Part shown: positions 28,675 through 55,594 of the stretch, in pieces
Layout of the letters: every line of letters begins with the position of its first letter
Numbering within the stretch: position 1 is the stretch's first letter
DNA from: Nocardioidaceae bacterium
Lineage (GTDB): Bacteria; Actinomycetota; Actinomycetes; Propionibacteriales; Nocardioidaceae
Assembly: GCA_017744365.1 (NCBI GenBank)
Contig: JAGIBL010000001.1
Span: forward strand, 1,322,501 to 1,386,500
Direction: 5' to 3'
DNA: 64,000 bases
Program-made: the position numbers and the translations under genes
Notes under the pieces: model-generated
The model's database searches: none
Seen by the model: the letters and a program-made list of their open reading frames with translations, nothing else
What the model was told of the DNA's origin: nothing

Positions 28675-28740
28675 CCCGCCGAATCCGGCCTTCTGGTCCG
28701 CCGAGTCAGGCCTTCTGGTCCGCCGAGTCAGGCGTTCTGG
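28675..28740. repeat. Three tandem 22-bp units covering the 3' end of rpe
   Basis: Units start at 28675, 28697 and 28719 with core CCGCCGAGTCAGGCCTTCTG. The third copy encodes the last residues (QNA) and stop codon of rpe, so the array extends out of the coding end. The same unit, in opposite orientation, forms the array at 29440-29541 on the other side of rpe. Confidence 0.9.
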
Positions 28741-29396
28741 CGTGCGGCCGTGGCCTTGTCACGCAGGGCGTTCACCATGTCGTCGGGGTGCTCGGCGGAG
28801 AAGACCGCGGACCCGGCCACGAAGACGTCCGCACCGGCCTCGGCGCACCGCTCGATCGTCTCCAGGGAGACACCGCCGTCCACCTGCAGCCAGACCTCGA
28901 GACCGGCGGCCGAGATCAGCTCGCGGGCACGCCGGATCTTCGGCAGGCACAGGTCGAGGAACTTCTGGCCCCCGAACCCGGGCTCGACCGTCATCACCAG
29001 GAGCATGTCGAGCTCGCCGAGCATGTCGGCGTACTGCTCGATGCCGGTCGCCGGCTTCAGCGCCATCGAGGCGCGGGCGCCCTTGGCGCGCAGCTCCCGG
29101 GCCAGCCGGACCGGCGCCTTGGCGGCTTCGGCGTGGAAGGTGACCGAGCCGGCTCCGGCCTCGGCGTACGCCGGCGCCCAGCGGTCGGGGTCCTCGATCA
29201 TGAGGTGCGCGTCCAGCGGAAGGTCGGTCGCCCTGGCCAGCGACTCGAAGACCGGCAGCCCGATGGTCAGGTTCGGCACGAAGTGGTTGTCCATCACGTC
29301 CACGTGCACCCAGTCCGAGCTGGGGATGCGGGCGACCTCGTCGGCCAGCCGGGACAGGTCGGCGTTGAGGACGCTCGGGGTGATCTGGATTCCCAT
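28728..29396 (-). CDS. rpe: Ribulose-phosphate 3-epimerase
   Basis: Pentose-phosphate pathway TIM-barrel epimerase (ribulose-5-P to xylulose-5-P); 222 residues. Seen: [35 protein letters not shown] with metal-binding His/Asp, [26 protein letters not shown] and [20 protein letters not shown]. The ATG at 29396 (MGIQITPS) is the family start. The last codons lie inside a 22-bp repeat. Flanked on both sides by inverted repeat arrays. Confidence 0.96.
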
Positions 29397-29439
29397 GACG
29401 CCGCTGATCGTAGTGGTGAACTCCTGACGAGCCACAATC

Positions 29440-29541
29440 CGGTTCTCGGGGGGCCAGAAGGCCGGACTCGGGGGGCCAGAAGGCCGGACTCGGGGGGCCA
29501 GAAGGCCGGACTCGGCGGGCCAGAAGGCCGGACTCGGCGGT
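29440..29541. repeat. Four-plus tandem 22-bp units between rsmB and rpe
   Basis: Full units begin at 29454, 29476, 29498 and 29520 (core CCAGAAGGCCGGACTCGG, then GGGG or CGGG), preceded by a partial copy. The array abuts the rsmB stop codon (29543-29541). It is the same unit as at 28675-28740 but inverted, so the rpe gene is bracketed by inverted arrays. Confidence 0.9.
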
Positions 29542-30860
29542 CAGTGGCGGCGGAGGAGGGAGATGAACATGGCGTCGGTGGAGTGGCGGTGGGGCCAGAG
29601 CTGGACGGCGCCGGGGAGGTGCGGGGACTCGGCGTCCTTGGCTTCGGGGAGGAGATCCGTTGCCGGTTCGAGGGCGACGTCGGGGCGGCGCTCGAGGATC
29701 TCCCGTACGACGTGCGCGGTCTCGGCCACGACCGGCGAGCAGGTGGCGTAGACGACCACGCCCCCGGGACGGACCGAGTCGAGGGCCCGGTCCAGCAGTG
29801 CCCTCTGCAGGGGCACGAGCTCCTCCACGTCCGACGGCGAGCGGCGCCAGCGGCTCTCCGGGCGGCGGCGCAGCGCCCCGAGGCCCGAGCAGGGGGCGTC
29901 GACGAGGACCCGGTCGAAGGTTCCGGATCTCCAGGCGGGCCGGGTGCCGTCGCCGGCGATCACGCTCGCGACTCCCCCGGGCACCGCGCGCAGGCCCTGG
30001 GCGACCAGCGCAGCCCGGTGCGGCTGGCGCTCGTTGGCGAGCAACCGGGCGCCGCGCTGGGCGGCGATCGAGGCGAGCAGCGCGGCCTTGCCCCCGGGGC
30101 CGGCGCAGAGGTCCAGCCACTGCTCGTCGCGCCCCTCGACCTCCGCCCGGGTGAGCGCGAGCGCGACCAGCTGTGACCCGGCGTCCTGGACCCCGGCCCG
30201 GCCCTCGCGCACCGCGGCCAGCGCGCCCGGGTCTCCCCCGCCCAGCTCGACCGCGTACGGCGAGATCGGCAGCGGCACGCCGCCGGAGTCGGTCAGCTCG
30301 GCCACGTCGGCCAGCCCGGGCCGTGCCACCAGCACCACCGAGGGGCGGGCGTTGTCCGCGGCGAGCAGGTCGTCGAGCTCAGCAGGCCGGTCGAGCGCCT
30401 CGGTCAGCGCGTCGACCACCCACTGCGGGTGCGAGGTGCGCTCGGCCAGCGAGCGACCGGCCAGCCAGTCGGCCAGCGGGCGCGTCGCGGTCTTGCGCAG
30501 CACCGCGTTGACGAGTCCGGCGGGCCGGTGACCGATCCGGTTCTTGACCAGGTCGACCGTCGTGCTCACCGCGGCATGGCTGGGGACCCGCAGCGAGAGC
30601 ACCTGGTGGACGCCGAGCCGGAGCGCGTCGCGGACCGGGGCGTCCAGCGGCCGGTCCACGAGCTGGGCGAGCACCGCGTCGTACGCGCCGCGCATCCGCA
30701 GGGTGCCGCCGACCAGCTCGGTGGCCAGCGCCGCGTCACGGTCGGCGAGCCGGCGCTCGCGGAGCAGCCGGGACAGCTCCAGGTTGGCGTAGGCGTCCTG
30801 CTCGTCGACGGCCCGCAGCACGTCGAAGGCGACCAGCCTCGCGGGGTCAACGCGCGCCAA
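29541..30860 (-). CDS. rsmB: 16S rRNA (cytosine-967-C5)-methyltransferase
   Basis: Sun/Fmu-family rRNA m5C methyltransferase, 439 residues. N-terminal NusB-like domain (about 1-140, ARLVAFDVLRAVDEQDAYAN). Catalytic domain with SAM motif LDLCAGPGGKAALLA, the catalytic Cys in VDAPCSGLGALRR (motif VI) and ATCSPVVAE (motif IV/VI-type second Cys). Its 5' end overlaps the MmcQ-like gene by 14 bp; its stop abuts the 22-bp array. Confidence 0.94.
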   Translation of the reverse strand: MARVDPARLVAFDVLRAVDEQDAYANLELSRLLRERRLADRDAALATELVGGTLRMRGAYDAVLAQLVDRPLDAPVRDALRLGVHQVLSLRVPSHAAVSTTVDLVKNRIGHRPAGLVNAVLRKTATRPLADWLAGRSLAERTSHPQWVVDALTEALDRPAELDDLLAADNARPSVVLVARPGLADVAELTDSGGVPLPISPYAVELGGGDPGALAAVREGRAGVQDAGSQLVALALTRAEVEGRDEQWLDLCAGPGGKAALLASIAAQRGARLLANERQPHRAALVAQGLRAVPGGVASVIAGDGTRPAWRSGTFDRVLVDAPCSGLGALRRRPESRWRRSPSDVEELVPLQRALLDRALDSVRPGGVVVYATCSPVVAETAHVVREILERRPDVALEPATDLLPEAKDAESPHLPGAVQLWPHRHSTDAMFISLLRRH

Positions 30861-31275
30861 GGTGCTCCTTGACCAAGGACTTCGGCGCGCAGGCCCGCCA
30901 GGCGTCGGTGATGACCTCGACGAGCTCGTCGCGACCGACCTCGCCGAGCCGGGAGAGCTGCACCAGCACGGCGTTGTAGCCGTTGAAGTGCGGGATGGTG
31001 AAGTACGGCCCGCCGCTCTCGACCAGCTCGACCTTGTCGGCCTCGCTGGGCGTCCGGATCACCAGCAGGTCGTCGTACAGGTCACCGGTCCGAGGGTCGA
31101 CTGCGGTCTTGTGGGGCTTGCGGTAGAGCACGAACCCGCGGCCCTGCCGCTCGCCGTCGCGGTAGCGGTGGTGCACCAGCCAGGTCGGGACGTCGCCCCA
31201 CGAGGTCCCGAACCAGGTCTCGGGGAGGCCGGCGCAGATCTCGTCGACGTCCTCGGGGCGTGCCGCACGGCTCAT
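30847..31275 (-). CDS. MmcQ/YjbR family protein (second copy)
   Basis: A 142-residue protein of the same family as the gene at 4136. Seen: ARPEDVDEICAGLPETWFG, GRGFVLYRKPHKTA, FTIPHFNGYNAVLVQLSRLG and the C-terminal VITDAWRACAPKSLVKEH. Function unknown. It lies between fmt and rsmB in the def-fmt-rsmB group, a frequent place for such a gene in actinobacteria, and overlaps rsmB. Confidence 0.85.
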   Translation of the reverse strand: MSRAARPEDVDEICAGLPETWFGTSWGDVPTWLVHHRYRDGERQGRGFVLYRKPHKTAVDPRTGDLYDDLLVIRTPSEADKVELVESGGPYFTIPHFNGYNAVLVQLSRLGEVGRDELVEVITDAWRACAPKSLVKEHLGAR

Positions 31276-31285
31276 GGGCGCGACG

Positions 31286-32212
31286 CTACTCCCCGAGCCT
31301 GGTACCGGACTCGATCCGCACGCCCCGTGCCCAGTCGGCGGCGGACATCTGCTTCTTCCCGAACGCCTTGACCTCGCCGAGCTCGACCGGGGCGGTGCCG
31401 GTGCCGACGTACACGGCGTTCTTGGTCACCTCGAGCACACCGGGTGCCAACGGCTCGCGGTCGGTGAGGGACACCGGACCGAGCTTGAGCCGCTCTCCGT
31501 CGTACGTCGTCCAGGCACCGGGCCCGGGGGTACAGGCCCGGATCCGCCGGTCCACGCCGAGGGCCGGGTCCTCCCAGTCGACCCGGGCGTCCTCGACGCT
31601 GATCTTCGGGGCGATGGTGACGCCCTCGGCCTGCTGCTCGCGGGCCTCCAGGGAACCGTCCTCGATGCCGTCCAGCGTGGCCACCAGCAGACCCGCGCCG
31701 CCCTCGGCCAGCTTCGCGAGCAGGGTGCCGGCGGTGTCGTCGGGCCGGATCGTCTGGGTCATCAGCCCGAACGTCGGCCCGGCGTCGAGCGCGGGCACGA
31801 TCCGGAACGTGGTCGCGCCGGTGACCTCGTCGCCGGCCCAGATCGCGTGCTGGACCGGGGCGGCGCCGCGCCAGTGCGGCAGCACCGAGAAGTGCAGGTT
31901 GACCCAGCCGTGCTCGGGGATCTCCAGCGCCGAGGACGGCAGCAGCGCGCCGTACGCGACCACCGGGCAGCAGTCGGGGCGCAGCGCGCGCAGCTCCTCC
32001 TGGAAAGCCGGGTCCTTCGGATGGTCGGGCTTGAGGACCGGGACGCCCAGCTCCTCGGCCCGCTGCGCGACCGGCGACGGGGTGAGCTTGCGGCCGCGGC
32101 CCGCGGGCGCGTCCGGGCGGGTGACCACGCCGACGAGCTCGTGCTGGCTCGACGCGATCGCCTCCAGCGACGGCAGCGCGACCTCGGGAGTCCCGGCGAA
32201 GACGACCCTCAC
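31286..32212 (-). CDS. fmt: Methionyl-tRNA formyltransferase
   Basis: Formylates initiator Met-tRNA with 10-formyl-THF; 308 residues. Seen: [17 protein letters not shown], the folate-site [20 protein letters not shown] with catalytic Asn/His, [13 protein letters not shown] and C-terminal tRNA-binding domain. The start is set to GTG 32212 (V-R-V-V-F-A-G-T), with a GAGGG ribosome site; an upstream frame to 32236 would overlap def and lacks homology. Confidence 0.96.
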
Positions 32213-32219
32213 AGCGCCC

Positions 32220-32762
32220 TCACAGCCCGAAGCCACCCGTCGCGTGCGGCGAGATCCGCACCTGGGTGTCCGCGCCGAACCACTCCGACTCGCGGATCGT
32301 CCTCATGGCGGCCTTGCGCGCCTCCCGGTCGAGCCGGTCGATGAACAGGATCCCGTCGAGGTGGTCCGTCTCGTGCTGGATCGCGCGCGCCAGCAGGTCC
32401 GTGCCCTCGATGGTGACCGGGTCGCCGAACATGTTGAAGCCGCGCGCGATCACCGACTGGGCGCGCAGGCAGTCCAGGGACAGCCCGGGCAGCGACAGGC
32501 AGCCCTCGGGCCCGTGCTGGGTCTCCTCGGACAGCGACAGCTCCGGGTTGACGAGGTGGCCGAGCACACCCTCGACGTGCCAGGTGAAGACCCGCAGGCC
32601 GATGCCGATCTGGGGAGCCGCGAGCCCGGCTCCGGGCGCGTCGACCATGGTGTCGGTCAGGTCCGCGACCAGCGAGCGCAGCTCCTTGTCGAAGTCGGTC
32701 ACCGGGGCGGCCGCGGTGCGCAGCACCGGGTCGCCGAACAGCCGGATCGGCCGGATTGCCAA
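32220..32762 (-). CDS. def: Peptide deformylase
   Basis: Metal-dependent removal of the N-formyl group from new proteins; 180 residues. All three motifs are present: [18 protein letters not shown] (metal Cys) and QHETDHLDG (metal His pair and catalytic Glu). It precedes fmt, its functional partner, by 7 bp. Confidence 0.97.
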
Positions 32763-32969
32763 CGGGGGCTCCTTCCTGGGGACCGAAGAAGTCTAGGTGC
32801 AGGGTGTCTGGCCCGCGCCACTGCCGTCGCGAGCGTCGTCAGGCGCGGTGCATGGCAAGGCGGAGGAGGGAGACGGCCCGGGGTTGGCCGTCGACTGACG
32901 ACAACGCGGCCAGGCGCCGTGGATGGCGGCGCGCAGCAGGCAACAGGCGCGGGTCGGGCACCCTGGGTC
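32763..32969. other. 207-bp intergenic region between priA and def with degenerate repeats
   Basis: No gene found. Two related 16-mers, AGGCGCGGTGCATGGC (32841-32856) and AGGCGCCGTGGATGGC (32912-32927), differ at two positions. An inverted pair CGTCGTCAG (32834-32842) and CTGACGAC (32895-32902) encloses part of the region. Near def on the minus strand TAGACT (32796-32791) may be the -10 of the def-fmt promoter. It could be a decayed repeat island like those after rpe and pyrF. Confidence 0.4.
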
Positions 32970-34982
32970 TCAACCGAGATCGTGCGGGTCCACCTGGACC
33001 CGGACGTGCGGCTCCTTGCGCGCCGAGCGCCGGGCCTGCATCGCCTGGAGGGCCGCGGACAGGTCCGCGCCGGCGGCCCGCGGGACCCGTACGACGAGCC
33101 GCTGCTCGTCCTCGGCGGGTACCGGGCCGAGCACCTCCGCGCCCGCGGGGAGCTCGAGGGCCGCCCGGGCGGCGTCGAGCACCTCGGCCGGGGCGGTGAG
33201 CGTGGCCACCCGCGAGGAGGGCGGCAGGTGGGCCTGCTGCCGCTCGGTGATCTCCCGGTCCGCGAAACCGCCCGCGTCCCAGCGGACCAGCGCCTGCAGC
33301 GCCGGGTGCGCCGGGTCGCCGACCGCGAGCACCCGTCCGCCCGGGGCGACCAGGGCGGCCGCGTTGGACCAGCGGCGCAGCGCCTCCTCGGCCGCGCGCA
33401 GGTCGGAGCGGGCCAGCAGCAGCCAGGTGTCGAGCAGCAGCACAGCCGCGTAGCCGCGCTCGGCGACCGGTTCCGCCCCCGGCGTGGAGACCACCAGCGC
33501 GGGCTTGTCCGGGACGTCGGACAGCACCCGGTCCCCCGACGAGGTCCGCACCGGGACCGACGGGAACGCCCGGCCGAGCTCCTCCGCGGTTCGGAGGTCC
33601 CCCAGCACCGGCGCGCGCAGCCCGTGCCCGCCGCAGACCGGGCAGGTCCAGCCGGCCGCACTGGTCCCGCACCAGGCGCACGCGGGGGCCGCGCCCGCGC
33701 CGACCACGCGCAGCGGTCCGTGGCAGACCTGGCAGTCGGCCGGGGTCCGGCAGCGGTCGCAGGCGAGCCGGAGCGCGTACCCGGCGCGCGGGGTCTGGAT
33801 CAGCACCGGCCCCTGCTCCAGGCCCGCCTTGATGGCCTCGAACGCGTCCGCGGGCAGCCGGGCACCGCGGCCGGCGGGGTCGCGCGCCACCTGGAAGTCG
33901 GAGTCGCCGGCGACCTTGACCGTCACGCGGCGGCGCAGCTCCTCGCGGGGCAGCGCCACCTCGTGCGCCCAGCCGCTGCGCAGCAGGTACTCGGCCTCGA
34001 CGCTGCGGGCGTGCGACCCGAGCAGCACCGCGGTGCCGGCGAGCCGGGCGCGCAGCAGCAGCACCTCGCGGGCGTGCGGGTACGGCGCCCGCGGCTCGGC
34101 GAACAGGTCGTCGCCGTCGTCCCAGAGCGCGACCAGGCCGAGGTCGGCGACCGGGGCGAACGCGGCCGCCCGGGTGCCGAGGGCCACCCGCGCCCGGCCG
34201 CGGGAGAGCGCCAGGAAGGCGGCGTAGCGCTGGGCCGGGCCGGCATCGGCGGTGAGAACCACGTGCTGCCCGGGCTCGAGCCGGGCGGAGAGCGCGGTGT
34301 CCAGCCGCTCGACGTCGCGGTAGTCCGGCACGCAGACCAGGGCGCCCCGGCCGGAGGAGGCGGTCGCGACCACCGCCTCGGCCAGCAGCGGGGCCCAGTC
34401 GTCGCCGGGGCCGGCCGACCAGACGGCACGCGGCGTCTCGCCCCGAGTCAGCGACTCCAGCAGCCCCGCTCCCCCCTCGTACGACGACCACCGCGCCGGG
34501 TCCGCGACGGCGGTCCAGGGCGGCGGGCTCGGGGTGGCCTTCTTCTCGGTGGTCGCGTGCCGTCCCGGGACCGCCAGCCGGAGCACGTCCGAGCGGGTCC
34601 CGGCGTACCGGGCGGCCACCTCGCCGACCAGCTCGGCGACCTCCGGGGTGAGGACCGGCTCGGCGCTGACCACGCGGCGCAGCGGCTGCAGCCGGCCCGG
34701 GTGCTCGCTGGCCACCGTACGGGAGATCAGGAAGCCGTCCACGTCCTGGCCGGCGAAACGCACCTTGACCCGGGCACCCGGCACCGCCGTCTCGGCCATC
34801 GTGGCCGGGACCGCGTAGTCGAACGGCCGGTCCAGGTGCGCCAGCGGCAGGTCGACGAGCACCTGGGCGACGGGGTCCTGCTCGGCCAGCACCAGCGGCT
34901 TCTTCTCGGCCGGGGGCTTGGCCCTCCGCGCCTCGGCACGCGCGATCCCGGGGAGCGAGAGCTCACCCTGGGGATCGGTCAT
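32970..34982 (-). CDS. priA: Primosomal protein N' (PriA), helicase motifs degenerate
   Basis: Replication-restart protein of 670 residues. Seen: N-terminal DNA-binding domain (DPVAQVLVDLPLAHLDRPFDY, KVRFAGQDVDGFLISR) and the Cys-rich zinc region CDRCRTPADCQVCHGPL...CAWCGTSAAGWTCPVCGGHGL. The Walker A loop is replaced by SAGPGDDWAPLL and the DEAH box by LWDDGDDLF, so ATP-driven helicase activity is unlikely, as is known for mycobacterial PriA. Start ATG 34982 (MTDPQGELSLPG); a longer frame enters the metK terminator. Confidence 0.93.
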   Translation of the reverse strand: MTDPQGELSLPGIARAEARRAKPPAEKKPLVLAEQDPVAQVLVDLPLAHLDRPFDYAVPATMAETAVPGARVKVRFAGQDVDGFLISRTVASEHPGRLQPLRRVVSAEPVLTPEVAELVGEVAARYAGTRSDVLRLAVPGRHATTEKKATPSPPPWTAVADPARWSSYEGGAGLLESLTRGETPRAVWSAGPGDDWAPLLAEAVVATASSGRGALVCVPDYRDVERLDTALSARLEPGQHVVLTADAGPAQRYAAFLALSRGRARVALGTRAAAFAPVADLGLVALWDDGDDLFAEPRAPYPHAREVLLLRARLAGTAVLLGSHARSVEAEYLLRSGWAHEVALPREELRRRVTVKVAGDSDFQVARDPAGRGARLPADAFEAIKAGLEQGPVLIQTPRAGYALRLACDRCRTPADCQVCHGPLRVVGAGAAPACAWCGTSAAGWTCPVCGGHGLRAPVLGDLRTAEELGRAFPSVPVRTSSGDRVLSDVPDKPALVVSTPGAEPVAERGYAAVLLLDTWLLLARSDLRAAEEALRRWSNAAALVAPGGRVLAVGDPAHPALQALVRWDAGGFADREITERQQAHLPPSSRVATLTAPAEVLDAARAALELPAGAEVLGPVPAEDEQRLVVRVPRAAGADLSAALQAMQARRSARKEPHVRVQVDPHDLG

Positions 34983-34998
34983 GGGCGCTATCCAAGCA

Positions 34999-35034
34999 CT
35001 GAGCCCTCCCACCCCGAGGGGCAGGAGGGCTCAG
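34999..35034 (-). terminator. metK terminator hairpin
   Basis: Perfect 11-bp inverted repeat CTGAGCCCTCC (34999-35009) and complement (35024-35034), with a further CCCC/GGGG pairing inside the loop. It starts 11 bp after the metK stop and ends before the priA start. No U-tract. Confidence 0.75.
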
Positions 35035-35044
35035 CGACCAGGAC

Positions 35045-36241
35045 TCAGATGCCGGCGGCCTTCTTCAGGTCCTCGGCGCGGTCGGTGCGCTCCCAGGTGA
35101 ACTCGGGCAGCTCACGACCGAAGTGACCGTACGCGGAGGTCTTGGCGTAGATCGGGCGCTTCAGGTCCAGGTCGCGGATGATCGCGGCCGGGCGCAGGTC
35201 GAAGACCTCGAGGACTGCCTTCTGGATGGTCTCGTCGGAGACCACGCCGGTGCCGAAGGTCTCGATGAAGACACCGACCGGGGCGGCCTTGCCGATGGCG
35301 TAGGCGACCTGGGCCTCGCAGCGACGGGCCAGGCCCGCGGCGACGACGTTCTTCGCGACCCAGCGCATCGCGTAGGCAGCCGAGCGGTCCACCTTGGACG
35401 GGTCCTTGCCGGAGAAGGCGCCGCCGCCGTGGCGGGCCATGCCGCCGTAGGTGTCGACGATGATCTTGCGGCCGGTCAGACCGGCGTCGCCCATCGGACC
35501 GCCGACGACGAAGTTGCCGGTCGGGTTGACCAGCAGCCGGTAGCCCTCGGACGGGATCTCGAAGGTCTCCAGCACCGGGTCGATGACGTGCTTCTTGATG
35601 TCGGGCGCCAGGGTGCCGTCGAGGTCGATGCCCTCGGCGTGCTGGGTGGAGAGCACCACGGTGTCGATGCGGACCGGGCGGTCGTTCTCGTCGTACTCGA
35701 TGGTGACCTGGGTCTTGCCGTCCGGGCGCAGGTAGTCCAGCGTGCCGTTCTTGCGGACCTCGGTCAGCTTCTCGGCGAGCCGCTGGGCGATGCTGATCGG
35801 GAGCGGGAACAGCTCCTTGGTGTCGTCGCAGGCGTAGCCGAACATCAGGCCCTGGTCGCCGGCGCCCTGCTTGTCGAGCTCGTCGCCGGAGCCGCCGACG
35901 CGGGACTCGTGACCGACGTCGACGCCCTGCGCGATGTCGGGCGACTGCTGGCCGAGCGCGATCTGGACACCACAGGAGTTGCCGTCGAAGCCCTTGACGG
36001 AGGAGTCGTAGCCGATCTCCAGGATCTTCTCGCGGACCAGCTGGGCGATCGGCGCGTAGGTCTTCGTGGTCACCTCACCGGCGACGACGACCAGCCCGGT
36101 GGTCAGCAGCGTCTCGCAGGCGACCCGGCTGTCGGGGTCGTCGGTCAGCAGCGCGTCCAGCACCGTGTCGCTGATCGCGTCGGCGATCTTGTCCGGGTGA
36201 CCCTCGGTCACGGACTCGGAGGTGAACAGACGTCCAGTCAC
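35045..36241 (-). CDS. metK: S-adenosylmethionine synthetase
   Basis: Makes SAM from methionine and ATP; 398 residues. Seen: [58 protein letters not shown]-type stretch ([17 protein letters not shown]), [19 protein letters not shown]. Start GTG 36241 with AGGAG five bases upstream. Separate transcript from coaBC is likely because of the 136-bp gap. Confidence 0.97.
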
Positions 36242-36377
36242 TGTGTCTCCTGTTGGTTCCCTGGCCGGATCTCGGCCAGTGGCTACATGCTCGGGCGTTT
36301 GTCGCCTGAACGTGGTCAGAATAACGAATCGTCCTCATGCTGAGACTGAGGTCTCACACGGGCCGCCCCCGCTGTTG
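36242..36377 (-). promoter_or_regulatory. metK upstream region with two hairpins
   Basis: On the minus strand TGAGAC/GTCTCA (36356-36341, 6-bp stem, 4-nt loop) lies just after coaBC and may end it. CTGGCCG/CGGCCAG (36279-36261, 7-bp stem, 5-nt loop) lies just before the metK ribosome site AGGAG. I looked for SAM-I/SAM-IV or SAM-II consensus elements and found none. Confidence 0.45.
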
Positions 36378-37619: not shown

Positions 37620-37632
37620 CGGGAGGCCCGCG

Positions 37633-37941: not shown

Positions 37942-37987
37942 CGAGCCTCACAAAAGCTAGGAAGTCGGAAATCCCGGGCAGACAGCC

Positions 37988-38858: not shown

Positions 38859-38946
38859 GGGGGCGACCTCTTCTTCTCGATGACCGGGAGCGGTGGGGAG
38901 CAATCTAGTCAGCAGGGCTGGCGGGCTGCAACGCGGCCTCCGGCGT

Positions 38947-39405
38947 CTACAGGCCGAGCTGGAGCTTGCAGACGTCTCGTGCCTGCTGGTCGATGCCGCT
39001 GAACGCGTCCACCACGTCCTGGTCGGCCACCTCGGAGGCGGCCTGGGCGATCCTGGTCTTCTCCGTGGCGGAAAGCCCGGCGGGCGGCTGCCCGTTCGCG
39101 AAGTCGCCCGGCTTCACGCCCGCCTTCTCGATGGCCTCGTCGAGGGAGTCCAGGGCGCTGAGCACGGTCTGCCACTCGTCGTCGAGGTCGTCGGGAGCCT
39201 TGGCCGCGAGCCGGTGCAGGGCAGGCAGGTTGCCGATCAGCGCCATTCCGGAGGAGTCGTCGGCGAAGACGCCCTGGTCCTTCTTCAGCGCGCCGCAGTA
39301 GGCGTCCTCGCCGCTCCCACCCCCGCACCCCGCCACCGCCGAGGCGGCGCAGATGAAAGCCACCAGGACGCTGAGGCGTCGCAGATGAAAGTCCTGGACT
39401 TTCAT
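38947..39405 (-). CDS. Secreted lipoprotein of unknown function
   Basis: A 152-residue lipoprotein: MKVQDFHLRRLSVLVAFI then lipobox AVAGC, so Cys27 would be lipidated and the Gly/Ser-rich mature start GGGSGED follows. The rest is helical and soluble with two more Cys (EDAYCG, DVCKLQ) that could form a disulfide; no known domain. The N-terminal 22 or so codons consist of two copies of the 22-bp repeat read in different frames, so the signal peptide has been partly built from repeat DNA. Role unknown. Confidence 0.75.
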   Translation of the reverse strand: MKVQDFHLRRLSVLVAFICAASAVAGCGGGSGEDAYCGALKKDQGVFADDSSGMALIGNLPALHRLAAKAPDDLDDEWQTVLSALDSLDEAIEKAGVKPGDFANGQPPAGLSATEKTRIAQAASEVADQDVVDAFSGIDQQARDVCKLQLGL

Positions 39406-39453
39406 CTGCGACGCCTCGGCGGTTTTTGGGGTTTCATCTGAGACGCCTCAGCG
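39337..39453. repeat. Four-copy dyad array (F-F-R-R, 31-32 bp period) at the pyrF 3' end
   Basis: A 22-bp unit (core GAGGCGTCGCAGATGAAA) occurs at 39337 and 39369 on the plus strand and inverted at 39400 and 39432. Start-to-start distances are 32, 31 and 32 bp, about three helical turns. The two central copies form a perfect 45-bp palindrome (39369-39421 region, centre GTCCTGGAC). The last copy contains the pyrF stop codon; the first two lie inside the lipoprotein signal peptide. Confidence 0.92.
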
Positions 39454-44594: not shown

Positions 44595-44611
<17 letters not shown>

Positions 44612-48416: not shown

Positions 48417-48976
48417 CGGATCGTCACCCCGTCCTCGCCGTCGTCGTACTCGGCCAGCCGGACGGCGACCTTCTCGGCCAGCGAGGTCGGCAGGTTCTTG
48501 CCGACGAAGTCGGCCCGGATCGGCAGCTCGCGGTGGCCGCGGTCGACCAGCACGGCGAGCTGGACCGCTCGCGGGCGGCCGATGTCGTTGAGCGCGTCGA
48601 GGGCGGACCGGATGGTGCGGCCGGAGTAGAGGACGTCGTCGACCAGCACCACGACCTTGTCGTCGATGCCCTCGCTGGGGATCTCGGTCGGGGCCAGGGC
48701 GCGGGCGGGCCGCAGCCGCAGGTCGTCGCGGTACATCGTCACGTCCAGGGACCCGACCGGCACCGCGGCGCCCTCGACCTCGGTGATCTTGGCGGCGATC
48801 CGGGAGGCCAGGTGCACGCCGCGGCTGGGGATGCCGAGCAGGACGATGTCCTGGGCGCCCTTGTTGCGCTCGAGGATCTCGTGGGAGATGCGGGTGAGGG
48901 CCCGGGTGATGTCCCGGGAGTCGAGGACGGTGCGTCCGTCGACGGGTGGCAGATCTGGCTGCTGGGTAGGCGGCAT
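48413..48976 (-). CDS. pyrR: Bifunctional pyr operon regulator/uracil phosphoribosyltransferase
   Basis: A 187-residue PRTase-fold RNA-binding regulator, controlled by UMP. Seen: [35 protein letters not shown], the PRPP loop [22 protein letters not shown] and [14 protein letters not shown] 48976 with AGGAGG 9 bases upstream. First gene of the pyr operon; it likely binds its own leader RNA (next feature). Confidence 0.96.
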
Positions 48977-49068
48977 CGCGCCTGACCTCCTTCTCCGCCT
49001 CACGGGACGGCTCGTTAAAGGATGTCGTGCTTCGCGGGCGACTCTACCAGCCGCCTGCCGGACGCGAA
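48977..49068 (-). promoter_or_regulatory. pyrR promoter and PyrR-binding RNA loop
   Basis: On the minus strand TTCGCG (49068-49063) and TAGAGT (49046-49041) with 16-bp spacing form a likely promoter, predicting a leader of about 58 nt. Within it CCGTCCCGTGAGGCGG (49010-48995) followed by AGAAGG resembles the PyrR anti-antiterminator loop. The pyrR ribosome site AGGAGG (48991-48986) starts only 3 nt after it. This layout suggests translational repression by PyrR-UMP rather than attenuation. Confidence 0.6.
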
Positions 49069-49070
49069 CC

Positions 49071-49105
49071 GGCGGCGCCGCCCGTCGGAACGGGCCTGCG
49101 CCGCC
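49071..49105 (-). terminator. Terminator hairpin after the CsbD-like gene
   Basis: Inverted repeat GGCGGCGC...GCGCCGCC with inner GCCCG/CGGGC pairing, 15 bp downstream of the CsbD-like stop and just upstream of the pyrR promoter. No U-tract. Confidence 0.65.
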
Positions 49106-49120
49106 AGTCGGGTTTCGGGC

Positions 49121-49291
49121 TCAGCTGAAGGCGTCCTTCACCTTCTCGCCGGCCTGCTTGAGATCGGCCTTGGTCTGGTCGACCTTGCCCTCGGCCTCGA
49201 GGTCCTCGTCGTCGCTGGCCTTGCCGAGCGCTTCCTTGGCCTCGCCGACCTTCTCGTCGGCAGCGTTCTCGAGCTTGTCCTGGTTGCCCAT
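49121..49291 (-). CDS. CsbD-family stress protein
   Basis: A 56-residue, highly charged helical protein: start MGNQDKLENAADEKVGEAKE, middle ALGKASDDEDLEAEGKVDQT, end VKDAFS, the CsbD/YjbJ-like pattern. Family members accumulate in general stress; molecular role unknown. ATG with AAGGGGG 5 bases upstream. It stands alone between nusB and pyrR with its own terminator. Confidence 0.85.
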   Translation of the reverse strand: MGNQDKLENAADEKVGEAKEALGKASDDEDLEAEGKVDQTKADLKQAGEKVKDAFS

Positions 49292-49357
49292 GACAACCCC
49301 CTTCGCGTCGGGTGCGTACGACGTCCCGGGTACCCGGAGCGACCGCTCCCAAACGGG

Positions 49358-49768
49358 TCAGGCGATCAGGGTCTCCTTGTCCCGGACGATGTTGCCCAGC
49401 ACTCCGTTGACGAACGCGGGCGACTCGTCCGTGGACAGCTCGCGGACCAGGCTGAGGGCCTCGCTGATCGCCACCGGGTCGGGCACCTCGTCGACGTACA
49501 GGAGCTCGAAGACGGCCAGCCGCAGCACGTTCCGGTCCACCGCGGGCATCCGGGACAGCGTCCAGCCCTGCGCGTACGTCGTGATCAGCTCGTCGAGGCG
49601 GCCCAGCCGGTCGGCGACCCCGCGGACCAGCTCGACCGTGTAGTCGTTGGCCGGGCGCTCGCCGGCCGCCAGCTGCTCCTCGAGCAGGGCACCAGGCGCC
49701 TGACCCCGGGCCTCCGCCGCGAAGATCAGGTCCAGAGCCCGCTTGCGGGCTTTCGAACGAGCGCTCAT
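49358..49768 (-). CDS. nusB: Transcription antitermination protein NusB
   Basis: All-alpha RNA-binding factor for rRNA antitermination, 136 residues. Seen: SKARKRALDLIFAAEARGQA, VELVRGVADRLGRLDELI, SRMPAVDRNVLRLAVFELLY and PVAISEALSLVRELST. Start shares a base with the efp stop (TGATG). Confidence 0.96.
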   Translation of the reverse strand: MSARSKARKRALDLIFAAEARGQAPGALLEEQLAAGERPANDYTVELVRGVADRLGRLDELITTYAQGWTLSRMPAVDRNVLRLAVFELLYVDEVPDPVAISEALSLVRELSTDESPAFVNGVLGNIVRDKETLIA

Positions 49769-50331
49769 CAGCCCTTCACGCGGCCCAGGTACGACGAGTC
49801 GCGGGTGTCGACCTTGACCTTCTCGCCCTGGTTGATGAACAGCGGCACCTGGATCTCGTGGCCGGTCTCCAGGGTGGCCGGCTTGGTGCGGCCAGTGGCG
49901 GAGTCGCCGGCGAGGCCGGGCTCGGTGAACGTGATCTCCAGCTCGACCGAGGCGGGCAGCTCGATGAACAGCACCCGGCCCTCGTTGGTGGCGACGATCG
50001 CCTCCTGGTTCTCCAGCATGAAGTTCGCGGCGCTGCCGACCACGTCCGGGCCGACCTCGGTCTGCTCGTAGGTTCCGGTGTCCATGAAGACGTAGTTGGT
50101 GCCGTCGTTGTAGAGGTACTGCATCGTGCGCCGGTCGACGGTCGCGGTCTCGACCTTGGTGCCCGCGTTGAAGGTCTTGTCGACGTTCTTGCCGGACTCC
50201 ACGTTGCGCAGCTTGGTCCGGACGAAGGCCGGGCCCTTGCCGGGCTTCACGTGCTGGAACTCGACGACGGACCAGAGCTGGCCGTCGATGTTGAGAACCA
50301 TGCCGTTCTTGAGGTCGTTCGTGGTTGCCAT
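49768..50331 (-). CDS. efp: Elongation factor P
   Basis: Relieves stalling at polyproline; 187 residues, three beta-barrel domains. Seen: [20 protein letters not shown], the tip loop [19 protein letters not shown] with the Lys normally reached toward the peptidyl centre, [13 protein letters not shown] and the C-terminal [14 protein letters not shown]. No modification enzyme gene nearby. Confidence 0.97.
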
Positions 50332-50362
50332 GCGCGCGTGAGCCCTTGTCTGCGTTGGTTGA

Positions 50363-50382
50363 GGGCGCTTCGCTCCGCGCCC
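50363..50382 (-). terminator. Candidate terminator after the ECF sigma gene
   Basis: Hairpin GGGCGC/GCGCCC with an 8-nt loop, 12 bp beyond the sigma-factor stop and upstream of efp. Short stem and no U-tract. Confidence 0.45.
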
Positions 50383-50393
50383 GACGCGGCAGT

Positions 50394-50978
50394 CTAGCCG
50401 TCGAGCGTCGTACGGCGTAGCCGGGCGAGCCCGCGGTGCCGGGCCACCCGGACGGCGACCTGGGAGATGTCCAGCGCGGTCGCGGTCCCGGCCACGTCCA
50501 GGCCGACCACGTCGATGCACGCGATCACCTCGCGCTCCCGGGTGGGCAGCGACGCGAGCGCCTGGTGGATCCACTGGTCGGCGACCACGTCGGCCTCCAG
50601 GGCGTGCAGGATCGCGGTGTCCCCCAGCGCGTCCTCCACCTGCCCGACCGGGGACGTCCCGCGCCGGGCGCTGCGGCGGCGGGCGTTCTGGGCGTGGTGG
50701 CGGGCGATCCCGAACAGCCAGCCCGCGAAGGCGTCGTCGTCGCCTCGGAACTCGTGCACCTTCTCCGCCGCGGTCAGCCAGGCCTCCGCGGCCAGGTCCT
50801 CCGCGCTCGCGGCCACGTCCGGAGAGGTCAGGTGGGCCAGCCAGGCCACCAGCCGGCCGGCGTGCGCGCGGTAGAGCTGCGCCCAGGCAGCGGCATCGCC
50901 GTCCCGGGCGCGGTCGACGAGGGCGCCGTCGGCGGGCGCCCTCCGCTCAGCTTCCCGAGCCGCCGGAGACACCCGCAT
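50394..50978 (-). CDS. ECF-type RNA polymerase sigma factor
   Basis: A 194-residue sigma-70 family ECF factor. Region 2 (about 25-100): [59 protein letters not shown]. Region 4 (about 135-190): [20 protein letters not shown] then [23 protein letters not shown] 50978 with GGAGG 5 bases upstream is chosen; it lies 32 bp inside the end of the upstream membrane-protein gene, implying coupled synthesis. Likely held by that membrane protein. Promoter targets are unknown. Confidence 0.93.
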
Positions 50979-51570
50979 CGCCGCCTCCGGATCCGCTGTG
51001 GCCACCGGAACCGTCCGTGGGTTCCGGGGTCGCCGTCGCCTTCCCGCTCCCGCTGTCCGTCTCGGGCTCGGACCCGCTGTCGTGACCGCCACGACCCCGG
51101 TGGTCCTCCTCGGGGGTCTCGGTGCCACCACCGCCGGGTCCCTGGTGCCCGTCCTCGGTCGCCTCCTCGCCAGGCTCCTCCCCGTGGTGCCCGCCCGGCC
51201 CGTCCTCCCCGGGCTCCTCGGCCTCGTCCTCGTCCTCGGCGTCGTCGTCGTCGTCCCCGGAGACGCCAGCCGGCCCGGTCGGCGTTTCCGCCGTCGAAGG
51301 GGTGCGCGGGCCGGCCGGCGTCGGAATCCGGGTCGGGACCTGGGGCTGTGTGGGGGGTTGGTCCTCGACGACCCGGGTGGCTGCGTAGGCAGCGCCGGAA
51401 AGTAGGAGCAGCGTGACCAGCGCTGCGATGACGACGCGGGCGAGCCGTCGTACGGGACGGGCCGCCACTGCCGCGCCCAGCGCGGCGACCGACGCCAGCC
51501 GGGCCATGAAGACAGGGTCCGGTTCCAGGTCGGGTATCTCGGCTCGAAGCCGCCTGCTCAGCTCATCCAT
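50947..51570 (-). CDS. One-pass membrane protein with acidic His-rich extracellular tail; putative anti-sigma factor
   Basis: A 207-residue protein: cytoplasmic N-terminus (MDELSRRLRAEIPDLEPDPV, about 1-44), one membrane helix (about 45-65, RVVIAALVTLLLLSGAAYA), then a long disordered exterior rich in Asp/Glu, Gly, Pro and some His (for example GDDDDDAEDEDEAEEPGEDG and GGHHGEEPGEEATEDGHQG). No canonical zinc anti-sigma motif (HxxxCxxC). Gene order and overlap with the sigma gene suggest an anti-sigma role, with the tail as a cation or envelope sensor. Both are inference. Confidence 0.72.
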   Translation of the reverse strand: MDELSRRLRAEIPDLEPDPVFMARLASVAALGAAVAARPVRRLARVVIAALVTLLLLSGAAYAATRVVEDQPPTQPQVPTRIPTPAGPRTPSTAETPTGPAGVSGDDDDDAEDEDEAEEPGEDGPGGHHGEEPGEEATEDGHQGPGGGGTETPEEDHRGRGGHDSGSEPETDSGSGKATATPEPTDGSGGHSGSGGGDAGVSGGSGS

Positions 51571-51596
51571 TCCTCACCGCTGTTCGGTCCGGTCAA

Positions 51597-51630
51597 CCCC
51601 GGTCGTGCAGCCGCCGCGCCACGACCGGGG
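51597..51630 (-). terminator. Terminator hairpin after the secreted acidic protein gene
   Basis: Perfect 11-bp inverted repeat CCCCGGTCGTG (51597-51607) and complement (51620-51630), 12-nt loop, 17 bp past the stop of the secreted protein gene. It separates that gene's transcript from the membrane protein/sigma pair. Confidence 0.75.
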
Positions 51631-51646
51631 CCAGACCATGAGGGCG

Positions 51647-52129
51647 TCAGTCGTCGCCGCCGCCGTGACCGCTGTGGTCGCCGTCGTCCCCGCCGTGGTG
51701 GCCGGAGTCGTCGGAGGGACCCGAGTTCTCGCTCGGACCCCGGTTGTCGTGCTCTGCCTCGTTCTCGTCCGCCTCGTGCTCGGCCGCCTCTCCCGCGGCC
51801 TCCTCGGCCTCCTCGGCGGCTTCCTCGGCAGCCTCGTTCTCGTCCTCGGCCGCTTCGTTCTCGTCCTCGCCGGGCTCGTCGGCGTGCTCGCCCTGGTGGT
51901 TCGCTCCCTGGCGGTGGTGGTGCTCCGCCTCCGCGGGTTCGGGCGCCTCGGTCTCGGGCGCCTCCGTGGGCTCCGGGGTGACGTCGTCGTCCGGGCTCGA
52001 GACCGGGCTGGACGCCGGTGCGTGCTGGTGGGCGGGGGCGCTCGCCGCGCCGACCGCGTAGGCGCCGCCGATGGACAGGGCGGCGGCGCTGAGAGCGCCG
52101 ACGACCGTTCTGAACGGAGTGATGCGCAT
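51647..52129 (-). CDS. Secreted acidic, His-rich low-complexity protein
   Basis: A 160-residue exported protein. Signal peptide about 1-30 (MRITPFRTVVGALSAAALSI, then GGAYAVGAASA). The mature part is almost entirely Glu/Asp/Ala with His clusters: EAEHHHRQGANHQGEHADEP in the middle and SGHHGGDDGDHSGHGGGDD at the end. Coiled-coil-like EEA repeats lie at about 90-125. Composition suggests cation binding in the envelope. GGAGG lies 9 bases before the ATG. Probably a target and partner of the adjacent ECF system. Confidence 0.75.
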   Translation of the reverse strand: MRITPFRTVVGALSAAALSIGGAYAVGAASAPAHQHAPASSPVSSPDDDVTPEPTEAPETEAPEPAEAEHHHRQGANHQGEHADEPGEDENEAAEDENEAAEEAAEEAEEAAGEAAEHEADENEAEHDNRGPSENSGPSDDSGHHGGDDGDHSGHGGGDD

Positions 52130-52169
52130 GTGTACTTTCCTCCCGATGATGACGACGGTTGAGGTGCGT

Positions 52170-52205
52170 CATCGGTTCATGTCGCCGGGAGGTGCGAGCG
52201 TTACA
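52170..52205 (-). promoter_or_regulatory. Candidate ECF-dependent promoter of the secreted protein gene
   Basis: On the minus strand TGTAACG (52205-52199) contains the AAC core usual in ECF -35 elements and lies about 70 bp before the ATG, with GACATGA about 16-17 bp downstream as a possible -10. Assignment to the adjacent sigma factor is inferred from proximity. Confidence 0.35.
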
Positions 52206-52229
52206 TCGCGGACTTGGGAATTTCTGCGC

Positions 52230-52661
52230 TCAGTTCCGGGCCAGGTGCTCCAGGGCCATCCGGTAGCCGTCGATGCCGTACCCGGCGATCACCGCGGCGG
52301 CGTGCGGGGTGACCACCGAGCTGTGCCGGAACACCTCCGGCCGCTGCGTCGGGTCGGAGATGTGCACCTCGACGAGCGGTGCGACCAGCTGGCCGCAGGC
52401 GTCGTAGATCGCGTAGGAGTAGTGCGTCCAGGCAGCGGCGTTCAGCACCACCGGGATCTCCTCGTCGGCGGCGTCGTTGAGCCAGTCGAGCAGCTCGCCC
52501 TCGTGGTTGGTCTGGCGCACCTCGACGTCCAGCCCCAGGTCGCGGCCCCAGCCCACGCACAGGTCCGCGAGCTCGTCGTACGTCGTGTAGCCGTAGATCT
52601 CGGGCTGGCGGCGGCCCAGGCGACCGAGGTTGGGGCCGTTGAGCACCAGGACCCTGGTCAC
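52230..52661 (-). CDS. aroQ: 3-dehydroquinate dehydratase, type II
   Basis: Third shikimate step; 143 residues of the dodecameric type II enzyme. Seen: VLVLNGPNLGRLGRRQPEIY with catalytic Arg/Tyr, RQTNHEGELLDWL, VLNAAAWTHYSYAIYDA (Asn/His site, normally N-P-G-A-Y-T-H-T-S) and VEVHISDPTQRPEVFRHSS. Variant flanking residues but all catalytic positions kept. GTG start overlaps the aroB stop (GTGA). Confidence 0.93.
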   Translation of the reverse strand: MTRVLVLNGPNLGRLGRRQPEIYGYTTYDELADLCVGWGRDLGLDVEVRQTNHEGELLDWLNDAADEEIPVVLNAAAWTHYSYAIYDACGQLVAPLVEVHISDPTQRPEVFRHSSVVTPHAAAVIAGYGIDGYRMALEHLARN

Positions 52662-53761
52662 GCCTCCCCCAGGTACTCGTAGGCCGTGCGCAGCAGCGCC
52701 TCGTCCGGGTCGGTGAGGACGCCCGGCTTCGCCAGTCCGTCGAGCACCAGGAAGCGCAGGTTCGCGCCGCGGGCCTTCTTGTCCACCCGCATCGTCGCCA
52801 GCAGCTCCTCGAACGGCGCGCTGGCGAAGCGGGTCGGCAGCCCGACCGAGGCCAGCACCCGCGCGTGCCGGGCGGCGGTCTCGTCGTCGAGACGCCCGGC
52901 GCTGCGCGCCAGCTCGGCCACGTAGACCATGCCCAGCGCGACCGCCTCGCCGTGCCGGACCCGGTAGCCGGTGGCCTTCTCGATCGCGTGCGCCAGCGTG
53001 TGCCCGTAGTTGAGCACCTCCCGGCCCGGGTGGCCGTCGGCGCCGCCGGTCTCCTTGAGGTCGGCGACCACGACGTCGATCTTGACCGCGATGGCCCGCT
53101 CGACCAGCTCGCGGAGCACCGCGGAGCGCGGCTCGAGGGCGTCCGCGGGGTTGCGCTCGACCAGGTCCAGGATCACCGGGTCGGCGATGAAGCCGCACTT
53201 GAGCACCTCGCCGAGGCCCGCGATCAGCTCGGGCTCGGGCAGGGTGCCGAGCACGTCGAGGTCGCAGACCACGCCGGCGGGCTCGTGGAAGGCGCCGACC
53301 AGGTTCTTGCCGGCGCCGGTGTTCATCCCGGTCTTGCCACCGACCGCTGCGTCGACCATGGCGAGCAGCGTGGTCGGGACGTGCACCACGGGCACGCCGC
53401 GCAGCCAGGTGGCCGCGATGAACCCGCCCATGTCGGTGGTGGCCCCGCCGCCGACGGTCACGACCGCGTCCGAGCGGGTGAACCCGGCCGCGCCGAGCTG
53501 CTCCCAGGCGTCCAGCGCGACCGTGCCGGTCTTGGCGACCTCGCCGTCGGGCAGCGGGATCAGCAGCACCTGGTAGCCGTCGAGGTGGGCGATCACCTTC
53601 TCGGCGAGGTGGGCCAGCGGCTCGGCGAAGAGGACCGCGACCCGGTCCGGCCGGTCGCCCAGCATCGCGGGCACCTCGCCCAGCACGTGGTGGCCGACCA
53701 CCACGTCGTACGGCGCCGCGCCGCCGACGTGCAGCCGGGTGACGGTCTGCTCTCCAGGCAT
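52658..53761 (-). CDS. aroB: 3-dehydroquinate synthase
   Basis: DAHP to 3-dehydroquinate, NAD and metal dependent; 367 residues. Seen: LIPLPDGEVAKTGTVALDAW, VVTVGGGATTDMGGFIAATW, GVPVVHVPTTLLAMVDAAVG with GKTGMNTGAGKNLVG, LNYGHTLAHAIEK and RHGEAVALGM with zinc ligands. ATG 53761 is one base after the aroK stop. Confidence 0.97.
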   Translation of the reverse strand: MPGEQTVTRLHVGGAAPYDVVVGHHVLGEVPAMLGDRPDRVAVLFAEPLAHLAEKVIAHLDGYQVLLIPLPDGEVAKTGTVALDAWEQLGAAGFTRSDAVVTVGGGATTDMGGFIAATWLRGVPVVHVPTTLLAMVDAAVGGKTGMNTGAGKNLVGAFHEPAGVVCDLDVLGTLPEPELIAGLGEVLKCGFIADPVILDLVERNPADALEPRSAVLRELVERAIAVKIDVVVADLKETGGADGHPGREVLNYGHTLAHAIEKATGYRVRHGEAVALGMVYVAELARSAGRLDDETAARHARVLASVGLPTRFASAPFEELLATMRVDKKARGANLRFLVLDGLAKPGVLTDPDEALLRTAYEYLGEA

Positions 53762-53762
53762 G

Positions 53763-54272
53763 TCACCCATCCTGCACCAGGCCCCGGACCTCGTCAGCCA
53801 CCTCGGCAGCGGTCCGGCCGTCGGTCTCCACGGTGTGGCGCGCGAGCGCGGCGTAGATCGGGGTGCGCTCGTCGAGGAGCTGCTTGATCCGGCCGCGGAC
53901 GTTGCCGAGCAACAGCGGGCGCGAGACGCCGAGACCGACGCGGGAGGCGGCGTCGGCCAGCCCGACCCGCAGGAAGACCACCGGGTGTCCGTCCAGGAGC
54001 GCGCGGGTGTCCTCGGCCAGCACCGCACCGCCGCCGAGGGCGAGCACGCCGTCGTGGTCGCGCAGGGCGTCCGCGACCGCCTGCCGCTCCAGCGCCCGGA
54101 AGGCCTCCTCGCCGTCGTCGACGAAGATCTCCGCGACCGCCTTGCCGGCGCGCTCCTCGACCAGGTGATCGGTGTCGGCGAAGCCCACGCCCAGCGACTC
54201 GGCGACGAGGCGGCCGACCGTGGTCTTGCCCGCGCCCATGGTGCCGATCAGGACGACCAGCGGTCCGGTCAC
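53763..54272 (-). CDS. aroK: Shikimate kinase
   Basis: Phosphorylates shikimate; 169 residues of the NMP-kinase fold. Seen: P-loop [17 protein letters not shown], shikimate-binding [13 protein letters not shown] and LALGGGAVL, and the LID Arg in [24 protein letters not shown] start overlapping the aroC stop (GTGA). Confidence 0.96.
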
Positions 54273-55447
54273 GAGTACCTCAGGGACGCGAGGTAGGAGT
54301 CGACGTTGCGCTTGGTCTCGGTCACCGAGTCGCCGCCGAACTTCTCCAGCACGGCGTCGGCCAGCACCAGAGCGACCATCGCCTCGGCGACGATCCCGGC
54401 AGCCGGGACCGCGCACACGTCGGAGCGCTGGTGGTGCGCGACGGTCGCCTCGCCGGTGGCCACGTCCACGGTGCGCAGCGCCTTGGGCACGGTCGCGATC
54501 GGCTTCATCGCGGCGCGCACCCGGAGGACCTCGCCGGTGCTCATCCCGCCCTCGGTGCCCCCCGACCGGTCGGACGTACGACGGAGCCGGCCGTCCTCGG
54601 TGACGATCTCGTCGTGGGCCTGCGAGCCGGGCGTGCGGGCCAGTTCGAAGCCGTCGCCGACCTCGACGCCCTTGATCGCCTGGATGCCCATGAGCGCACC
54701 GGCCAGCCGGGCGTCGAGCCGGCGGTCCCAGTGCACGTGCGAGCCGAGGCCCGGCGGGAGGCCGTGCACGACCACCTCGACGACGCCGCCGAGGGTGTCG
54801 CCGTCCTTGTGGGCCTGGTCGATCCGCTCGACCATCAGCTTGGAGGCGTCCGGGTCGAGCACCCGGACCGGGTCCGCGTCGAGGCGGGCCACGTCATCGG
54901 GGCCGGGCAGCTCGGTCGCGTGCGTGCGCACCCCGCCGATCTCGAGCACGTGGCTGACGATCCGGGCGCCGGTGGCCTGCTCGAGGAACGCGCTGGCGAC
55001 CCTCCCGAGCGCCACCCGGGCGGCGGTCTCGCGGGCGGAGGCCCGCTCGAGGATCGGACGGGCCTCGTCGAAGTCGTACTTCTGCATGCCCACCAGGTCG
55101 GCGTGGCCGGGGCGCGGCCGGGTCAGCGCGGCGTTGCGGCCGGTCTCCTTGAGCAGGCTCGGGTCCACCGGGTCCGCGGACATCACGGTCTCCCACTTGG
55201 GCCACTCGGTGTTGCCGACCTCGACGGCCACCGGGCCGCCCTGGGTCTGGCCGTGCCGGACGCCGCCGGTGATGGTGACCTCGTCCTGCTCGAACTTCAT
55301 CCGGGCTCCGCGTCCGTAGCCCAGCCGCCGCCGGGCGAGCGCGTCCGCGATGTCCGCGGAGGTCACCTGGACGTGCGCGGGCAGGCCCTCGAGAATCGCG
55401 ACGAGAGAAGGGCCGTGCGACTCCCCCGCGGTCAGCCAACGAAGCAT
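54269..55447 (-). CDS. aroC: Chorismate synthase
   Basis: FMN-dependent EPSP to chorismate; 392 residues. Seen: [71 protein letters not shown] and [19 protein letters not shown]. Start ATG 55447 fixed by family N-terminus; an upstream in-frame extension runs through the dyad repeat and is rejected. Confidence 0.97.
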
Positions 55448-55489
55448 GCCCGAAGTCTCCCACGCACCCGTTCCCACCCGCCGACCCGT

Positions 55490-55594
55490 CTTGAAAGTGC
55501 ACGTGTTGACGCTGACCTGGCGCAAAGGTGCACGTGTACGTGCACCTTTGCGCCAGGTCAGCGTCAACATGAGTACTTTTGCGCCAGGTCAGCG
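55490..55594. repeat. Dyad array (F-F-R-R, 31-bp period) at the prepilin peptidase 3' end
   Basis: A unit with core GCTGACCTGGCGCAAAGGT lies at 55510 (forward) and inverted at 55544 and 55575. A decayed forward copy (TGAAAGTGCACGT) ends at 55504, 31 bp before the matching point of the next. The central pair forms 31-bp perfect arms (55505-55535 and 55538-55568) around two bases. The last copy contains the peptidase stop codon (55591-55589). Same architecture as 39337-39453 with a different sequence. Confidence 0.9.

Follow-up and report, generated by a model that had tools for sequence, protein, structure and literature searches.

The repeat islands that mark several gene ends in a 64,000-nucleotide (nt) stretch of a Nocardioidaceae genome are probably non-autonomous copies of repeat arrays belonging to nuclease-linked elements. 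The stretch, hereafter the window, covers positions 1322501-1386500 of contig 7 in the 4.76-Mb genome G000 (GC 71-73%), and its islands lie at the ends of rpe, rsmB, pyrF, and a gene named A24 peptidase. In a protein scan the nearest matches are to Nocardioidaceae, RsmB scoring 69% against a MAG and 61-63% against Nocardioides. Three dispersed families, A, P, and R, account for these islands, and each of them, like family X of two relatives (G011 and G019), also flanks, as inverted arrays, a gene for an AbiEi-like protein with a Vsr-like nuclease region.

Dispersed repeat families and their islands

A genome-wide pattern search finds 123 matches to the family A unit (CGCTGACCTGGCGCAAA) at up to 2 mismatches, 70 to the family P unit (GCNGAGGCGTCGCAGATGAAA) at up to 3 mismatches, and 49 to the family R unit (CCGCCGAGTCNGGCNTTCTGG) at up to 2 mismatches; the reversed patterns, used as controls, have no match in the whole genome. 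The period is mostly 31-32 nt in A, 32 nt in P, and 22 nt in R. Islands of A and P are mostly direct runs that meet head-on, and one-way runs are more frequent in R. Clustered regularly interspaced short palindromic repeats (CRISPR) are not a fitting class, as units of an array point either way and the sequences separating them are alike rather than unique (no search was aimed at cas genes). The window contains the following units:

28676-28741, plus strand: three 22-nt units of family R, the third covering the rpe stop codon at 28728-28730 (minus strand)
29431-29540, minus strand: four 22-nt units of family R and a degenerate fifth, abutting the rsmB stop codon at 29541-29543
39338-39358, plus strand: P unit 1, inside a downstream lipoprotein-like open reading frame as listed
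39370-39390, plus strand: P unit 2
39400-39420, minus strand: P unit 3, inverted and able to pair with P unit 2
39432-39452, minus strand: P unit 4, inverted, 21 nt, covering the pyrF stop codon at 39448-39450
55479-55509, plus strand: degenerate outer left arm of the A island
55510-55526, plus strand: A unit, inner left arm of the central hairpin
55547-55563, minus strand: A unit, inner right arm of the central hairpin
55578-55594, minus strand: outer A unit, 17 nt, covering the A24 peptidase stop codon at 55589-55591

The names rpe, rsmB, and pyrF are backed by NCBIfam; the A24 peptidase has no NCBIfam match at 1e-10, and its name is that given in the first-pass annotation of the window. According to that annotation, each of the four genes has a repeat unit that contains or abuts its own stop codon, and this is borne out: the stop lies inside a unit in rpe, pyrF, and the A24 peptidase gene, while in rsmB the first of the four R units begins immediately past it. 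That rpe and rsmB have a unit in common and the others differ is likewise correct. Direct-repeat scores of the gaps at the A24 peptidase gene (17.5), pyrF (18.0), and rsmB (71.5) exceed the best score of shuffled gaps (12.0). The score of the rpe gap (45.5) stems from a neighbouring 14-nt array and not from the R units, which Tandem Repeats Finder reports as three copies with a 93% match.

The annotation also proposed, as a rule, that units are phased to stop codons and form direct and/or inverted islands, and the rule extends beyond the window. The sample comprises fetched islands of A (36), P (22), R (24), and X of the two relatives (42), four islands covered by a called gene being excluded, with gene ends taken from an in-house codon-usage gene caller that missed some genes. 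Within -30 to +10 nt of the array edge lie 142 of the 191 neighbouring stop codons (A 51/57, P 23/35, R 26/39, X 42/60), compared with 3 of 57 start codons; several outlying stops, near 1.1 kb, belong to the nuclease-gene loci described below. In co-directional gaps (n = 47), the stop side holds on average 17% of the free space, where 50% is expected, and none of 20000 random placements is as low; with 50 nt reserved ahead of the start, the share is 22% (n = 31). Convergent genes nearly touch in this genome (median gap of 5 nt in 31 sampled gaps), so an island between them is almost necessarily flush with both stops.

The islands differ in their folding. Those of pyrF (z -13.2) and the A24 peptidase gene (z -12.8) fold far better than shuffled sequences, whereas those of rpe (z -0.2) and rsmB (z -0.6) fold no better than shuffles, and the same is true of one side array at the nuclease-gene locus L297. 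In family A, the inner arms are identical at 22.81 of 25 positions versus 21.39 expected (n = 36), which shows that copying or retention acts on the central hairpin as a whole; in this family the outer arms, pairs that are not mirrored, and adjacent tandem units are not raised above expectation. Agreement of mirrored arms is weaker in P (19.67 of 24 versus 18.82 expected) and weak in X (20.62 of 25 versus 19.96 expected), where same-side neighbours are alike instead and core positions are conserved. The hairpin was rejected as a general principle, because two of the four islands in the window fold no better than shuffles and strong arm agreement occurs in A only.

Two more gene-end families, at 15262-15328 of locus L083 (period 23) and 14366-14450 of locus L084 (period 22), come from ten 20-kb stretches at round coordinates and the window, together 255 gaps.

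The paired nuclease gene

In each genome, one examined island of each family is interrupted by 1.0-1.2 kb, and all five split loci (L041 for A, L046 for P, L076 for R, L254 in G011 and L277 in G019 for X) contain a related gene. The five encoded proteins have 307-344 residues as delimited here and are 41-55% identical to the first. A further array, whose halves lie 0.4 kb apart (L280 in G019), contains no homologue at 1e-20.

Judged from profile matches and conserved residues, the protein looks like an AbiEi-like N-terminal two thirds, a region of winged-helix type, joined to a C-terminal Vsr-like nuclease region of the PD-(D/E)XK kind. For the N-terminal two thirds, PADLOC gives matches to its AbiEi models (E-values down to 1.7e-15), and D243, E254, H261, and D269 in the C-terminal part are invariant in 30 sequences. 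In Pfam, AbiEi_4 is above the cut-off in three of the five proteins, DUF559 in two, and MTES_1575 in none; the latter is described in PMC3710099 as a nuclease domain of Vsr type that occurs in conflict systems.

A profile built from the five proteins has 81 matches at 1e-20 in 23 of the 24 genomes of the genus. Flanks were scored, at positions taken from the match coordinates, for all 34 matches of at least 250 bits (21 genomes), 16 of the 47 weaker ones, and 116 like-sized control genes from G000. Three features were counted, each at a score of at least 15: an inverted match between the flanks, a direct repeat of period 18-36 upstream, and the same downstream. At least one is present in 33 of the 34 strong homologues, 5 of the 16 weak ones, and 13 of the 116 controls; at least two are present in 26, none, and 2, respectively, and the 2 controls are the rpe and A24 peptidase genes of the window islands. 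Although periods of 18-36 were searched, the flank sides that reach the score have periods of 31-32 or 21-22.

The 3' ends of both neighbours face the element in 24 of the 34 strong cases and that of one neighbour in 9, with one case lacking a call. The neighbours identified at these loci are housekeeping genes (Era, UppS, Fur-like, CRP-like, and lysine-tRNA ligase). Across the loci of 30 aligned proteins, one neighbour pair is common to 8 species, a CRP-like neighbour to 7, the pair of UppS and a Fur-like gene to 4, and Era to 2, which suggests that the genes are old residents while their units have changed.

A same-genome 13-mer test draws mostly on G000, G011, and G019, on loci fetched for holding the families and thus biased; three loci not chosen in this way support the link (L104 in G005, L141 in G007, and L164 in G019). 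Viral carriers did not emerge: none of 81 pattern-matching stretches encodes a relative, and one weak match was obtained in a phage collection. Three more distant AbiEi-like paralogues (L331, L332, and L334) have palindromes on both sides and no tandem units; in G003, a like palindrome is also located at the end of the lpd gene (L146).

Homologues beyond the genus

Plasmid-collection records contain homologues from three further actinobacterial genera, Tsukamurella, Arthrobacter, and Nonomuraea. Seven of the eight places of named homologues were inspected (three in Tsukamurella tyrosinosolvens, three in Arthrobacter, and one in Nonomuraea), the proteins being 30-44% identical to the query that found them. 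Palindromes or repeats common to both flanks are present in six of the seven, a count that has no separate controls in these records, and in L337 and L339 the stop codon of the gene itself is inside the repeat. The palindrome around a Tsukamurella gene annotated as DUF559 (WP_170181047.1) occurs at 19 places in 8 records, all from Tsukamurella, and in all 7 records besides the gene's own the best place begins 1-30 nt past an annotated stop codon. A second palindrome is found at 6 places in 5 records, and the Arthrobacter repeat at 8 places in one record, the flanks of the gene itself included.

Change of units between proteins and genomes

The period class is clustered on the protein tree, requiring 3 changes compared with a mean of 6.2 after shuffling (none of 500 shuffles as low; 25 of the 30 rows labelled). 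Units were obtained for 26 of the 30 nuclease-gene loci, and for the 19 with period 32 unit similarity tracks protein identity (Mantel r 0.555, n = 19, none of 5000 permutations as high; r 0.568 for between-genome pairs). In 8 of the 19, the best-matching unit belongs to the nearest protein. The correlation demonstrates linkage together with joint descent and by itself gives no proof of recognition.

The units themselves are almost restricted to one or two genomes. At up to 1 mismatch, G000 contains 98 copies of family A; of 57 relatives, 4 have a single match each, and one of these 4 belongs to the 23 relatives from the same genus. Family R has 74 copies in its own genome versus 0-4 in each of 23 relatives, and family X has 102 copies in G011, 135 in G019, and 0-1 in the other 22 genomes. 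At the end of rpe, G019 and G005 have 32-nt arrays of other units. One junction shows empty and filled states of a single site, as for a mobile element: a gene matched by biotin-carboxylase models of NCBIfam, which we take to be accA3-like, converges with a presumably TetR-like neighbour, and the gap between them is 0 nt in G015 (TGA|TCA), 1 nt in G011, and 3 nt in G018, while the orthologous junction is filled by an A island in G000 and by an array of another unit in G019.

Proposed origin of the islands and alternatives

In the origin that we consider probable, a complete element would comprise the nuclease gene between two arrays pointing towards it, located at gene ends, and the islands would be such arrays without the gene. 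The protein would recognise its own unit and cut or nick DNA, whereupon repair might copy arrays into new gene ends and keep the copies of one genome alike. Surviving arrays may be flush with stop codons because convergent genes almost touch and the units carry TGA or TAA usable as a stop; a host role, such as terminating transcription in both directions or protecting the ends of mRNA, may be the reason that copies are retained. A wider proposition, for which we see the chances as even, is that proteins combining AbiEi-like and Vsr-like nuclease regions represent, beside RAYT, a second class of enzymes that spread repeats and that evolved independently; each would recognise the array of its own lineage, copy it into stop-codon junctions throughout the genome, and co-evolve with the units as RAYT does with REPIN.

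Several observations weigh against this origin. Profile matches of the nuclease region to known structures are weak (3hrl, 'Endonuclease-Like Protein', E 0.016; 3r3p, 'Mobile intron protein', E 0.45; PvuRts1I, E 0.68), and the match to Vsr (E 0.75) appears with the smaller profile only. The flank score threshold of 15 was chosen after the controls had been seen, and one close homologue, L303, has none of the three flank features; the Nonomuraea homologue likewise stands without a flanking repeat. The nuclease genes are syntenic across species (8, 7, and 4 at three junctions) and look fixed rather than mobile. Genome-wide dispersal is shown for A, P, R, and X only: for most other nuclease-gene loci further copies were not seen among the few same-genome loci at hand, and for the fourth such locus of G000, L315, about 760 kb of loci contain no further copy. 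At the ends of four orthologous genes, the three genomes with no close homologue have arrays at 0 of 9 ends and the 19 others at 5 of 59, counts too small for a comparison. For L046 (family P), L290, and L296, the unit of the nearest protein ranks 11th-17th of 18, and the correlation between unit and protein could reflect joint vertical descent without recognition. Finally, no movement was observed and no target-site duplication established.

Synteny of the nuclease genes would also suit a different arrangement, in which the arrays are selected binding sites at gene ends and the AbiEi-like nuclease is their resident binder (a roadblock terminator or nucleoid protein) and not their spreader. 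Spacings of 21-22 and 31-32 bp, near two and three helical turns, recur in unrelated units, and in X of G011 and G019 the core positions are conserved while the mirrored arms agree weakly; both observations favour this arrangement. However, bursts in one or two genomes and filled and empty junctions require that sequence be copied to new places, and a roadblock has no need of a conserved nuclease active-site pattern, and we regard this arrangement as unlikely. Still less credit is due to a reading of the islands as simply two-way terminators of transcription, or hairpins at the ends of mRNAs, that ordinary recombination has spread, with the nuclease gene as a chance neighbour. Their position at 3' ends, the strong hairpins of pyrF and the A24 peptidase gene, and the agreement of inner mirrored arms in family A beyond chance fit this reading, but the rpe and rsmB islands and the side array of L297 do not fold beyond shuffles, the outer arms of A do not covary, and flanking repeats, on the same loose count, accompany 33 of the 34 nuclease genes but 13 of the 116 controls.

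The match of PADLOC AbiEi models to the N-terminal two thirds raises the question of whether the gene serves in an AbiE toxin-antitoxin system or in defence, with the repeats as its operator. This is very improbable, as an operator would not recur at tens of other gene ends and the identified neighbours are housekeeping genes. Practically no likelihood is left for the origin favoured by the first-pass annotation, in which the genes' own ends are duplicated in place by fold-back or template switching. The islands belong to dispersed families unrelated to the flanking genes, an outcome that the annotation itself had named as speaking against its idea, and the families are each linked with a separate nuclease gene; the occurrence of identical units at many unrelated genes refutes the copying of gene ends as their origin. 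Of the causes it had offered, 'polymerase template switching, or an unknown element', the latter proves closer to the mark. Islands may nevertheless grow by local copying, since same-side neighbours are over-alike in P and X, but not in A.

Relation to known systems

The probable origin from nuclease-linked elements has its closest likeness in repetitive extragenic palindromic (REP) sequences and REPINs. As portrayed in sections of PMC3116915, PMC8049555, and PMC3733652, these are dispersed short repeats, often in inverted pairs, that favour the downstream side of genes and convergent gaps; a genome has several flavours, each beside one single-copy, vertically inherited RAYT gene, and REP ends can supply the stop codon of a flanking gene. 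The present families are similarly extragenic, able to supply stops, and tied as flavours to single-copy, vertically inherited genes, each flanking its own (A, P, and R in G000; X in G011 and G019). The enzyme is different, AbiEi-like with a Vsr-like nuclease region, and the units are in tandem with a period of 21-22 or 31-32. RAYT itself was considered and rejected: the Y1 transposase model PF01797 has no match in G000, the only genome of the genus searched, whereas 5 of 14 control genomes are positive. As the defining REP enzyme is absent from G000, the islands are not filed as REPs of that kind. Neither of the REP tags GTAG and CGTC occurs in the A, R, and X units, and CGTC is found inside the P unit, tag position aside.

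The 3r3p protein, which we take to be a Vsr-like (EDxHD) homing endonuclease, has a broadly similar type of nuclease region in a mobile setting, with the weak match given above; unlike in that system, the repeated part here is a short array of non-coding DNA. A host of intron or intein type was not seen, and no search was aimed at one. AbiEi antitoxins of type IV toxin-antitoxin systems, described in PMC7319586 as binding inverted repeats, resemble the protein in its N-terminal region but have no fused nuclease region. None of the five neighbour genes identified by family at four nuclease-gene loci is a toxin, AbiEii or other; the remaining neighbours were compared for shared synteny alone. 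In Neisseria, the DNA uptake sequences are short repeats that differ as dialects between species and often lie inverted at the ends of genes; compared with them, the copies described here are far fewer, longer, arrayed, and tied to a nuclease gene.

In actinobacteria, such proteins are annotated as DUF559 or AbiEi-domain proteins whose role is not known, and a literature search (title level, mostly open-access, bioRxiv preprints outside it) found no description of DUF559 proteins with dispersed repeats. The proposed origin gives a testable role to an uncharacterised protein family present in 23 of the 24 genus genomes and in three further actinobacterial genera. If true, it would constitute a pairing of repeat and enzyme built on an enzyme unrelated to RAYT, and it would account for lineage-specific gene-end repeats able to supply stop codons.

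Other features near the islands

The 14-nt tandem array (CCCCGCTCTCACCG, 5.4 copies) at 28604-28679 is located between the R units of rpe and an FMN riboswitch region, and matched no repeat family of this analysis. The riboswitch (Rfam RF00050, 92.8 bits) lies on the minus strand at 28417-28547. The P island, at 39338-39405, overlaps the first codons of the lipoprotein-like open reading frame, where its units may encode part of the signal peptide.

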